52,142 nucleotides of DNA from Rhizobiaceae bacterium (GTDB taxonomy: Bacteria > Pseudomonadota > Alphaproteobacteria > Rhizobiales > Rhizobiaceae), in assembly GCA_019635715.1 (NCBI GenBank), contig JAHBYY010000027.1, positions 1 to 52,142 on the forward strand. The letters are read 5' to 3'. Both the position numbers and the translations under genes were made by a program. Below the pieces are notes generated by a model. That model saw only the letters and a program-made list of their open reading frames with translations, was not told the origin of the DNA and searched no databases. The stretch's first letter is position 1. Every line of letters begins with the position of its first letter. Below, piece after piece: positions 2,842 through 45,772 of this stretch.

Positions 2842-2889
2842 CTGTGCGACCCGCTATCCTTTTTGCAAGGCGCCGTGGGAAGGAACGTC

Positions 2890-3555
2890 ATGGATCTTTC
2901 GCTAAATTTCGGAAGATTTATCGCTGGCGCTCTTATCAGCGCTCTTCTGGCGGTCGGTGGCGTTTGGTTTGTGGTCGACCTCTCTCTACGGGGAGTCGAA
3001 TCTTCGATAGAAGTGACGAACAAGCGAATTGACGACCTGCGTGTTGAATTGGTTCGCCATATAGATCAGCGCATGGAATTGCTTGAGTTTAAGTTGACAG
3101 AAGAATTTCAATCCACCCGAGAGGCCATTAAGAAGGCCGAGCTCCTGCCGAAAAAAACGAATGAAGGCGGAGAGACACCGAATATGGATCCTATTCGGAC
3201 GGCTTCAGCAGATATCAAGGTAGATATCGCAAGTGTTTCTCCGGAAGAAATTGTAGGTTCAATATTTTATTGGAATGGAAATGACAAGCAAGGCAAAATA
3301 GACGAATTGTTGGAAAAAGGTGACGGAACTTTTGATGCGTTTGTAGTAACTCTGAAGAGCGATGATGATCAAAAACGAGTTGCAATTTCTCCAAGATATG
3401 CGACTCTTTTCAAGTCCTCTGAGGATGGAAGTTATTATGTATTGAGCTCTGTCAGCGACAAGCAGATATCCTCTGTAGTTGAATTTGATAAGGCTAGTTT
3501 CAATCGGCGCCGGAATGAGATGCTTATTTCCGCGGATACTGGCTCCCAGAATTAG
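2890..3555 (+). CDS. AT-rich orphan: membrane-anchored coiled-coil protein of unknown function
   Basis: A 221-residue protein I do not recognise. Residues about 8-30 form one membrane helix (AGALISALLAVGGVWFVVDL), followed by a heptad-rich, probably coiled-coil segment at about 32-80, a short linker and a C-terminal globular domain with many aromatic and acidic residues. The start at 2890 has GGAAGG at 2879-2884; a TTG at 2863 in the same frame is less likely. Base use is clearly more A/T-rich than on either side, with AAA, GAA, TTT and ATA codons that neighbours avoid. This suggests transfer. It ends 11 bases before alaX, which has no good ribosome site of its own. The topology would suit a sensor of envelope state or a scaffold, but no function can be claimed. 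Confidence 0.72.
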   Translation: MDLSLNFGRFIAGALISALLAVGGVWFVVDLSLRGVESSIEVTNKRIDDLRVELVRHIDQRMELLEFKLTEEFQSTREAIKKAELLPKKTNEGGETPNMDPIRTASADIKVDIASVSPEEIVGSIFYWNGNDKQGKIDELLEKGDGTFDAFVVTLKSDDDQKRVAISPRYATLFKSSEDGSYYVLSSVSDKQISSVVEFDKASFNRRRNEMLISADTGSQN

Positions 3556-43633: not shown

Positions 43634-44608
43634 ATGAAGATCATCTCCGCGGCCGAAATCGACCGGGCTCTGACCTTTCCGGGGCTGGTCGACCGGCTCG
43701 AAGCGGCCTTTCGCGAGGGCGCCGTCCAGCCGGTGCGGCATCATCACACGGTGGAGCGGCCGGACGGCGCGGCCTCGACGCTTCTCCTGATGCCGGCGTG
43801 GACCGACTTTCCGGCGGCGGGCACGTCGGACGGCGGCTATGTCGGCGTGAAGATCGTCACGGTCTCGCCCGACAACAACGCCATCGGCAAGCCGGCGGTG
43901 ATGGGCGTCTACCTGCTGCTCGACGGCAGGACCGGCGAGCCGCTGGCGCTGATCGACGGGCAAAGGCTGACGCAATGGCGCACCGCCTGCGCCTCGGCAC
44001 TCGCCGCGCGCTATCTGGCGCGGCCGGATGCCTCGCGGCTGCTGGTCATCGGCGCCGGGGCGCTGTGCCCGTTCCTGGCACGGGCGCATTGCGCCGTCCG
44101 GCCGATCCGGGAGATCCGGATCTGGAACCGGACGCCGGCCAACGCCGAAACGGCGGCGGCGGCGCTGCGCGACAGCGGCCTGGACGTGTCGGTCGCGGAC
44201 GACCTGCACGACGCCATCGGCTGGGCCGACATCGTCTCGTCGGCGACGATCTCGACCAGCCCGCTGGTGGCCGGCTCCGCCCTGAAGCCCGGCGTCCATG
44301 TCGACCTCGTCGGCGGCTTCACCCCGGCGATGCGGGAGGCCGACGACGCGGCGATCGCGGCCGCCCGCGTCTACGTCGACACCCGCGCCGGGGCGACGAA
44401 GGAGGCCGGCGACATCGTCCAGCCGCTGACATCCGGCGTGCTGGCGGCCGACGCCATCGTCGCCGACCTGTACGAACTGGCGCGCGCCCGAAAGTCGGGA
44501 CGTGGGTCGGCGGACGAGATCACGCTGTTCAAGTCCGTCGGCGCCGCGCTGGAGGATCTGGCCGCGGGCATCGCGGTCTACGAGGCGCGGGCTGGCGGCG
44601 CGGCCTGA
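43634..44608 (+). CDS. Ornithine cyclodeaminase/mu-crystallin family protein
   Basis: A 324-residue NAD(P)-dependent enzyme of the OCD_Mu_crystallin family. Blocks: MKIISAAEIDRALTFPGLVD, then GYVGVKIVTVSPDN, RTACASALAARYL and the Rossmann part LLVIGAGALCPFLARAHCAV. Members deaminate ornithine to proline or reduce delta-1-pyrroline-2-carboxylate and related ketimines; ornithine specificity is not shown here. ATG at 43634 with GAGG about 10 bases upstream. Its last 31 bases overlap the convergent REase/HEPN gene. Confidence 0.9.
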   Translation: MKIISAAEIDRALTFPGLVDRLEAAFREGAVQPVRHHHTVERPDGAASTLLLMPAWTDFPAAGTSDGGYVGVKIVTVSPDNNAIGKPAVMGVYLLLDGRTGEPLALIDGQRLTQWRTACASALAARYLARPDASRLLVIGAGALCPFLARAHCAVRPIREIRIWNRTPANAETAAAALRDSGLDVSVADDLHDAIGWADIVSSATISTSPLVAGSALKPGVHVDLVGGFTPAMREADDAAIAAARVYVDTRAGATKEAGDIVQPLTSGVLAADAIVADLYELARARKSGRGSADEITLFKSVGAALEDLAAGIAVYEARAGGAA

Positions 44609-45237
44609 TCTCTTAGAGATTCCAAGATGGCCAAGAAGGCCCTAACATCATCCTTGTCAGCGACAGTCATCAGTTCGCCGTGGATAATGGAATTTCGGAC
44701 CTTTGCCAGCCTACGCAGAAGCGCCTCATCTTCGATCGTGACGAAACCTTGAGAAACCAAGATTTGAATCAGGCGGCCGGGCGACTGTGGTCGCTGAAAT
44801 TCACTTGGGACAATTCGTCGCGCGAGTGCCTCGAACGCACCCCATGCAAGCAACAATGCCGGGGCCGCCTCCGCTGAAGACAGTACATTTCGAATACTCT
44901 TTAGCGCTGAATCGATATATTCGAGCGGGACATACTCGATAACTCTCGATCTCACTCCCCGGTCGAACAAGACCAACAGTTCCCAGTCCGGGAGCTTCTT
45001 GACTTCCTGGTGAAGCCTTTTCAATCGTTCGGCGCTATCGGCTCCTTCGGTCACCACCTCGATGAGATACTTCGGCTCGCGCCCAATCGCCACCGCATCG
45101 GGTTGAAACTCCCGAAGCGTCTTTGGAAGAAACGTGTTCCCCTGCCGATAGATAGTATAACCGCGTTCGATCAGGCGACGCGTCTCGGCGGCGAGAACCT
45201 CCTGTTCCACCGATGAAACCGAGTGCTCCGTCCTCAT
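44578..45237 (-). CDS. Two-domain protein: degenerate REase-like fold plus HEPN RxxxxH domain
   Basis: A 219-residue protein without a clear named family. Residues about 10-100 look like a PD-(D/E)xK/archaeal-Holliday-junction-resolvase-like domain: QPDAVAIGREPKYLIEVVTE gives the PD aspartate D47 and E60, but the catalytic Lys expected two residues after E60 is Val, so cleavage is doubtful. Residues about 125-210 are helical and carry RNSIIH (R181 to H186), the RxxxxH signature of HEPN RNases and toxins. The start codon overlaps the RusA stop as ATGA. Base use is lower in GC than flanking genes. The last about 10 residues (QAAPPARAS) come from sequence antisense to the ocd gene. A defence or toxin role is inferred. 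Confidence 0.65.
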   Translation of the reverse strand: MRTEHSVSSVEQEVLAAETRRLIERGYTIYRQGNTFLPKTLREFQPDAVAIGREPKYLIEVVTEGADSAERLKRLHQEVKKLPDWELLVLFDRGVRSRVIEYVPLEYIDSALKSIRNVLSSAEAAPALLLAWGAFEALARRIVPSEFQRPQSPGRLIQILVSQGFVTIEDEALLRRLAKVRNSIIHGELMTVADKDDVRAFLAILESLRDQAAPPARAS

Positions 45238-45644
45238 TGCAAGTCCTCGAATGGATCGGTCGAGATACGGATGTAGAGCTTCGGCTTCTCTGCCGCAATC
45301 ACGTCCGCCAGGGTTTCGCTGGCAGATCCGAAGACAAAGATACGATTCGGCTCAAATTTCTGTACGACTACCCTCTCGACCTGATGATCATCGGAATAAA
45401 TCCAGTTGTTGAATGCATCCAAGATCGGCTTCACGATATTGTCGATGTCGCCTTCCATGGGCTCGGCGGGAAAATAGAAGACCGTAACGGAGATCGGGGC
45501 CACTGTAGCCCAATGGCCTTCCGCAAGCAGCGGCCTGGAAGCCGTCTTCAGGAACTCCTTCCAGACTGCGCGGGAGCGTGCGGAGGCCCCGAGCGAGACC
45601 GGGGTACCTGAAACGACAATCTCCAGCGGAAATTCGGGCTCCAT
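45234..45644 (-). CDS. RusA family Holliday-junction resolvase
   Basis: A 136-residue member of the RusA endonuclease family that cuts four-way DNA junctions in phages and mobile elements. The active-site pattern is GDIDNIVKPILDAFNNWIYS with D66, D68 and K72, the same spacing as D70, D72 and K76 of E. coli RusA, followed by SDDHQV (D85/D86). The ATG at 45644 has a G7 tract and TTGACA-like sequence upstream (minus strand); another ATG 7 residues earlier is possible. The gene overlaps the following REase/HEPN gene by ATGA. RusA is normally a phage gene, but here no other phage genes are seen. Confidence 0.87.
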   Translation of the reverse strand: MEPEFPLEIVVSGTPVSLGASARSRAVWKEFLKTASRPLLAEGHWATVAPISVTVFYFPAEPMEGDIDNIVKPILDAFNNWIYSDDHQVERVVVQKFEPNRIFVFGSASETLADVIAAEKPKLYIRISTDPFEDLQ

Positions 45645-45772
45645 TACCCCCCCAAAGTGTGTCAATTTAGAAGCAATCCTCCCGCTTCATCAAGGCGCAT
45701 CCAGCAGGTGCCCTACATTGCCGGGCGCGTTGCGCTGTGGCAGAAGCGCAGCATGCTGGACGGAGTTTTCGC

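Follow-up and report, generated by a model that had tools for sequence, protein, structure and literature searches.

What is a RusA-family Holliday-junction resolvase doing in an overlapping gene pair with a putative nuclease-HEPN fusion? The question is raised by a 52,142-nucleotide stretch of DNA (the window: positions 1 to 52,142 of contig JAHBYY010000027.1, assembly GCA_019635715.1, a Rhizobiaceae bacterium), in which a RusA-family gene and a gene for an archaeal Holliday-junction-resolvase-like (AHJR-like) restriction endonuclease (REase) domain fused to a HEPN domain form two overlapping open reading frames (ORFs), both on the minus strand (Table 1). The two genes constitute a real, recurrent and apparently unnamed two-nuclease module, a variant of the HEPN and conflict operons. 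The GC content of the pair is 0.55 compared with 0.69 on each flank, about 13 points lower, and by eye the flanking genes appear to encode an ornithine-cyclodeaminase-like protein and an S-adenosylmethionine-dependent methyltransferase. A first-pass annotation of this DNA had described a lower-GC unit with ATGA coupling between housekeeping genes, and this description was accurate. The lower-GC unit stops near the overlap with the ornithine-cyclodeaminase-like gene (44578-44608). At its other end, the RusA start is best read as the ATG at 45644 because the RusA proteins of relatives begin in that region, and the upstream TTG at 45665 appears less likely. A promoter and terminator scan at the locus gave a single promoter-like match, on the other strand, and no terminator.

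Recurrence of the pair in other genomes, a check raised by the same annotation, was found. When GTDB genome contigs were scanned with HEPN as the seed, 43 loci were identified, from several orders of Alphaproteobacteria and one Bacteroidota (Aquiflexum, L065), and a RusA match lies just upstream of the fusion gene in 40 of them. When a locus with a frameshift (L066) and one with an assembly gap of 156 N (L069) were subtracted, 38 intact pairs were left. The three loci that lack a RusA match are one that starts at a contig edge inside RusA (L042) and two deletions (L029, L059). The stop-to-start distance in the intact pairs was -4 in 20 and -1 in 13, and the others were called at 0, +1, +5, +8 and +20, though the called starts of L035, L052 and L063 are doubtful because the RusA stop itself shows an overlapping ATG. 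Additionally, a very divergent overlapping pair (L081) was found in another class of the phylum. Because order and overlap repeat in the Alphaproteobacteria, in the Bacteroidota copy and in L081, the pairing goes beyond chance.

The co-occurrence counts, which include the window's own genome in both sets, point the same way. Among relatives, the fusion protein was found in 5/101 genomes and the RusA-partner profile (E <= 1e-8) in the identical five, whereas among genomes of the class the fusion-protein profile was found in 9/385 and the RusA profile (E <= 1e-12) in seven, all inside the nine. One of these seven (G282) has both genes frameshifted, and the remaining two of the nine (L020, L021) have weak, distant HEPN matches without RusA. 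L020 (G347) encodes a distant AHJR-HEPN-like protein with the motif RDALAHG and has no RusA match nearby. Of 72,556 plasmid records, seven matched the fusion protein and six matched RusA, with six records common to both; the seventh, from Salmonella (L012), has the HEPN part only, with a different N-terminus and no adjoining RusA. RusA-seeded searches agree, as every RusA of this group that they recovered adjoins a HEPN gene (5/5, 7/7 including one doubly frameshifted locus, and 6/6), and RusA is annotated directly upstream of the fusion gene in L007, L008 and L010. In a phylum sample, the fusion-protein profile matched 12/349 genomes, five with an upstream RusA (one frameshifted) and seven with short HEPN-only proteins and no RusA, and the AHJR-like family PF18743 gave four matches in the 349 genomes, all among the five that bear RusA. 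In the class of G529, one of 48 genomes was positive, G529 itself. L012 (HEPN part only), L020 and L021 (distant HEPN, no RusA), L019 (both genes frameshifted) and L069 (gap) stand outside the counts. An intact pair is carried by Caulobacter vibrioides DSM 9893 (L036), and the AHJR-like family was matched in one of 14 control genomes, which is likewise C. vibrioides.

The window RusA matches Pfam family PF05866 (E 3.5e-9; 37.8 bits, above the curated cut-off of 22.8), and the RusA family profile matched E. coli RusA (1q8r) at E 0.0022 with the active-site residues aligned. D66, D68, N69, K72 and D76 are conserved in all 39 intact copies, and D85 and D86 in 38 each, which bears out the earlier reading of this active site as intact; a broken copy outside that count (L066) has R in place of K72. 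Compared with the E. coli and phage RusA resolvases, with which it shares both family and active-site residues, this RusA group differs in being bound to a single partner gene in the RusA-seeded searches, and the window RusA had no tblastn match in phage records.

The fusion protein matches PF18743 in Pfam (E 3.7e-8; 33.4 bits compared with a curated cut-off of 26.1), and its HepT-like match (0.0033) is below the cut-off. Across the family, AHJR-like matches were found in 43/43 members and HepT-like matches in 35/43 (both at E <= 0.01). The AlphaFold model of the protein (mean predicted local distance difference test score, pLDDT, of 90.4) has Hjc-like and HEPN domains, and the fold and profile matches were to Hjc and HepT/Csm6; on this model the protein is predicted to carry a HEPN fold beside a REase-like one, as had been proposed. 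R181, H186 and G187 are present in 43/43 copies and N182 in 42/43, in agreement with the R-x4-6-H motif. The REase site is more variable, with P46 in 43/43, D47 in 42/43, E60 in 36/43 and a lysine at position 62 in 18/43. The first-pass annotation had described a nuclease-like fold that lost its catalytic lysine, joined to a HEPN domain with an intact RNSIIH motif. This is correct for the window copy, which keeps P46-D47 and E60 with V62 in place of lysine and therefore has an incomplete PD...E-x-K motif, but it does not extend to the family, since the motif is complete in 18/43 relatives and the lysine absent in 25/43, so that the loss is confined to part of the family. By these conservation counts the near-invariant catalytic sites are those of RusA and HEPN, while the REase site decays and its domain stays. 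Ratios of nonsynonymous to synonymous substitution (dN/dS), by a simple count with several comparisons near saturation, were 0.02-0.20 for RusA (13/14 comparisons finite) and 0.04-0.29 for the fusion gene (15/18 finite), which indicates purifying selection on both genes.

As a separate observation, the Bacteroidota copy (L065:8001-8936) has an extra C-terminal part of about 105 residues. Among the best 20 of 30 records, this part is about 34% identical to hypothetical proteins on 3-7 kb plasmids of Escherichia, Klebsiella, Citrobacter and Enterobacter, and among the matches listed it is 40% identical to a protein on a Vibrio plasmid.

At its site in the window the pair has been gained or lost. 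Three congeneric genomes (G001-G003) have the flanking genes in synteny, but there the aligned flanks lie 755, 286 and 488 bp apart (L089, L090, L091) compared with about 1.31-1.32 kb in the window, and neither gene was found in these three genomes. The GC content of the pair is under that of its flanks in 40/43 loci, by a median of 7.4 points. The RusA and HEPN trees correlate with r 0.80, and none of 2000 permutations was as high (43 pairs, with L067 and L011 excluded from this mirror-tree comparison and kinship among the copies still in the statistic). A joint tree of the 38 pairs had 8 order-label changes compared with a shuffled mean of 8.8, a value as low being reached in 44/200 shuffles. 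A joint tree that does not follow the bacterial orders suits horizontal transfer, though a count above one change does not prove it. It should also be noted that four Bradyrhizobium copies (L057, L058, L059, L062) lie beside fliP, with Pfam FliP found in four neighbours, and high synonymous divergence among these copies suggests long retention at that site.

How does this pair relate to described systems? With HEPN-MNT (HepT-MntA), the type VII toxin-antitoxin system, it shares the HEPN fold, the R-x4-H motif and the two-gene arrangement. However, the pair in the window lacks the MNT partner, has an extra Hjc-like domain and has an active-looking nuclease as the partner of its HEPN protein; in all 38 intact pairs the gene upstream of the fusion gene is RusA and not an MNT nucleotidyltransferase. 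The tyrosine of the HepT motif R-x4-H-x-Y (the title of 6m6w names Y104) was not found either: the residue two places after the HEPN histidine is D in 28 copies, Q in 5, A in 3, G in 3, E, R and V in one each and a gap in one, and tyrosine in 0/43. Membership in HEPN-MNT was rejected on these two points. The N-terminal half of the fusion protein shares the PD-(D/E)XK fold with Hjc, the archaeal Holliday-junction resolvase, and has the complete motif in the 18 copies mentioned above, but it is fused to HEPN and its lysine is missing in the other 25, including the window copy. A HEPN-fold RNase coupled to a second component is also seen in AbiV-type HEPN effectors. RloC and PrrC likewise tie such an RNase to a second component, which in RloC couples it to DNA-end sensing; the window pair has no ABC-ATPase, and in it DNA would be sensed by a resolvase fold. 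The PADLOC models gave no match to RusA and only E 0.042 to PD-T4-6 for the fusion protein, and NCBIfam gave no real match to either protein. No published account of a RusA-HEPN pair was found in the literature searched, which lacked most subscription papers and preprints; the first-pass annotation had likewise known of no named system with this pair. The closest precedent is in the available text of Anantharaman et al. (2013, PMC3710099), in which HEPN-M is described as joined, in occasional cases, to an archaeal Holliday-junction-resolvase-like REase that had gone undetected before. This is the same type of fusion as in the second protein of the window, and PF18743 matches the family; a RusA partner is not mentioned in the available text of that paper.

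The favored reading, to which we would give about an even chance, is that the pair may be a horizontally moving two-gene conflict module, most likely anti-phage or anti-plasmid, that would combine junction-triggered DNA cutting with an abortive RNase. The support counted for it is the two-sided co-occurrence, the syntenic absence in G001-G003, the conserved catalytic residues, the dN/dS values, the agreement of the trees, the low GC, the defense neighbors, the predicted folds and the growth inhibition of Mycobacterium smegmatis by overexpressed phage RusA (PMC11373665, PMC10700055), and from these we infer a defense role. Both proteins would bind branched DNA, because RusA belongs to the Holliday-junction resolvases and its partner has the Hjc fold in the N-terminal half. 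The Hjc-like half would probably recognize junctions, for example replication or recombination intermediates of an invader, and such recognition may allow cleavage of the branched DNA by RusA and also activate the HEPN RNase, which would then cut host or phage RNA and stop growth. A bolder and more tentative proposal, possible but on balance doubtful, is an immune module of a new class, able to sense DNA branching, in which two unrelated Holliday-junction-resolvase folds, the RusA cutter and an Hjc-like sensor that is often catalytically degenerate, would act on the same junction, the sensor would directly switch the HEPN RNase, and invader intermediates would trigger DNA cleavage together with growth arrest. 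RusA resolvases are classed as enzymes of phages or of recombination. The one described here is bound, across many genera, to a single partner of RNase type, and this suggests a conflict system triggered by DNA structure and not by sequence or modification. If true, recognition of branched DNA would be coupled to an abortive RNase, and the pair would provide a clear model that is testable in lab bacteria. The first-pass annotation had proposed a junction-cutting DNase paired with a probable RNase in abortive-infection type defense, and this interpretation is partly supported; the contrary outcomes that it named (no recurrence, a fold without HEPN or REase, ordinary prophage genes) were not seen.

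The pair could instead be an accessory of DNA repair or recombination with no role in defense, in which RusA would resolve host junctions and the HEPN protein would clear RNA or control RusA. This would fit the nature of RusA as a recombination enzyme, the low dN/dS, the copies beside fliP in several Bradyrhizobium and an Agrobacterium copy that has ImuA, DNA polymerase and LigD genes nearby. However, the distribution is patchy (5/101, 9/385), GC is low, the tree is unlike the bacterial orders, and it is not obvious what the conserved RNase motif would do in resolving junctions. A LexA-box-like motif was also found upstream of 0/45 copies, on which SOS control was rejected, and on the whole this explanation is considered unlikely. 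A prophage remnant or phage cargo was suggested by the fact that RusA proteins are common in phages (there is a PHROGs match), but neither protein had a match in 50,697 phage records (RusA by tblastn at 1e-3), three pattern-seeded IMG/VR scans, made for the fusion protein only, gave no relative, and the flanking genes look like housekeeping genes. Prophage origin was rejected because these searches gave no phage relatives, and only a very slight chance is left to it. The same lack of a phage match for the window RusA speaks against a guard or decoy arrangement, in which the cellular RusA would mimic phage resolvases and the HEPN effector would respond to interference by a phage resolvase or its inhibitor. 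This model resembles AbiD1, a HEPN protein that, according to the available text of PMC3710099, interferes with a RuvC-like resolvase, that of phage bIL66. A decoy needs no conserved catalytic residues, and we regard this model as highly improbable.

Two further explanations make one of the genes a toxin, and natural losses bear on both. In L059 (Bradyrhizobium vignae) RusA has lost about 339 bp net, in frame, relative to L058, while the ATGA overlap and the HEPN gene are intact; in L066 RusA is frameshifted and the HEPN motif is intact; and in L029 only the end of RusA is left, with RS for RN in the HEPN motif. A broken RusA beside an intact HEPN ORF in all three suggests that HEPN without RusA is tolerated, which speaks against RusA as a needed antitoxin. 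A HEPN toxin with a RusA antitoxin would fit the description of HEPN toxins with a partner gene as common (PMC3710099). However, apart from the persistence of HEPN in L059 and L066, the RusA active site is kept in 39/39 intact copies, there is no MNT gene and the HepT-motif tyrosine is absent in 43/43, so this arrangement is improbable. The same losses favor the reverse, a toxin-antitoxin-like pair in which the harm would come from the RusA nuclease, held back or directed by the AHJR-HEPN protein, as does the finding that no RusA of this group lacks its HEPN gene. A RusA guarded by its partner is also plausible because overexpression of phage RusA inhibits growth of Mycobacterium smegmatis, as stated in the available text of two papers (PMC11373665, PMC10700055). 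However, the scan that yielded the broken copies was HEPN-seeded and may have missed the reverse case of RusA without HEPN, which biases the asymmetry, and HEPN catalytic residues need not be invariant in such a pair, yet they are present in 43/43. We regard the reversed pair as rather unlikely and retain the conflict module as the favored reading.

Table 1. Features of the gene pair in the window, and defense-related genes near other copies of the pair
Feature	Position or locus	Strand	Remarks
RusA-family Holliday-junction resolvase gene	45234..45644	-	136 aa from ATG 45644, stop 45234; D66, D68, K72, D85/D86
RusA active-site stretch D66-I-D68-N-I-V-K72	45429..45449	-	D66, D68, N69, K72 in 39/39 intact copies
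AHJR-REase/HEPN fusion gene	44578..45237	-	219 aa; Pfam and AlphaFold model
Hjc-like PD-(D/E)XK domain, residues 1-96	44950..45237	-	E11, P46-D47, E60; V62 instead of K
HEPN domain, residues 100-217	44587..44940	-	
HEPN motif R181-N-S-I-I-H186	44680..44697	-	R and H in 43/43, N in 42/43
ATGA, RusA stop sharing bases with fusion-gene start	45234..45237	-	-4 or -1 overlap in 33/38 intact pairs as called
31 bp tail-to-tail overlap of fusion gene 3' end and convergent ornithine-cyclodeaminase-like gene (+)	44578..44608		ORF list
AbiEii	L008		defense neighbor
GajA and PD-T7-1	L027		defense neighbors
PD-Lambda-2 B and C	L009		defense neighbors
dCTPase-model protein	L028		
LmuA and LmuC	L065		6.1e-40 (LmuA), 3.9e-6 (LmuC)

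The neighbor survey covered 144 proteins at 44 loci; 18 of 162 proteins were dropped (all of L006, L055 and L061 plus six more), and ORFs below 110 or above 700 aa were excluded. PADLOC at 1e-12 matched 56 families among the 144 neighbors (best 25 of 56 examined), and when hand-picked neighbors were scanned singly, 7/20 had no match. Known defense genes, whose nearness the first-pass annotation had named as a check, were found near the pair in 5/44 loci (Table 1); with no control set the figure is suggestive only. Many other copies sit between housekeeping-looking genes, as judged by eye and from a Pfam tally. A gene for a GHKL-type ATPase of about 640-670 aa lies downstream of the pair, adjoining or near it, in L008, L010, L011 and L027, with Pfam HATPase_c_3 found in four neighbors and PADLOC REase_II at about 1e-10 in the three that were scanned. 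In L008 and L011 it is followed by a restriction-endonuclease-type gene, which may be a separate defense unit.

Elsewhere in the window, a second low-GC island was seen at 2863-3555 on the plus strand, with a GC content of 0.42 at 3001-3500. It has an ORF of at most 230 aa, in which one membrane segment looks likely by eye, and this ORF is flanked by genes that look, again by eye, cysteine-synthase-like and alanyl-tRNA-editing-like.
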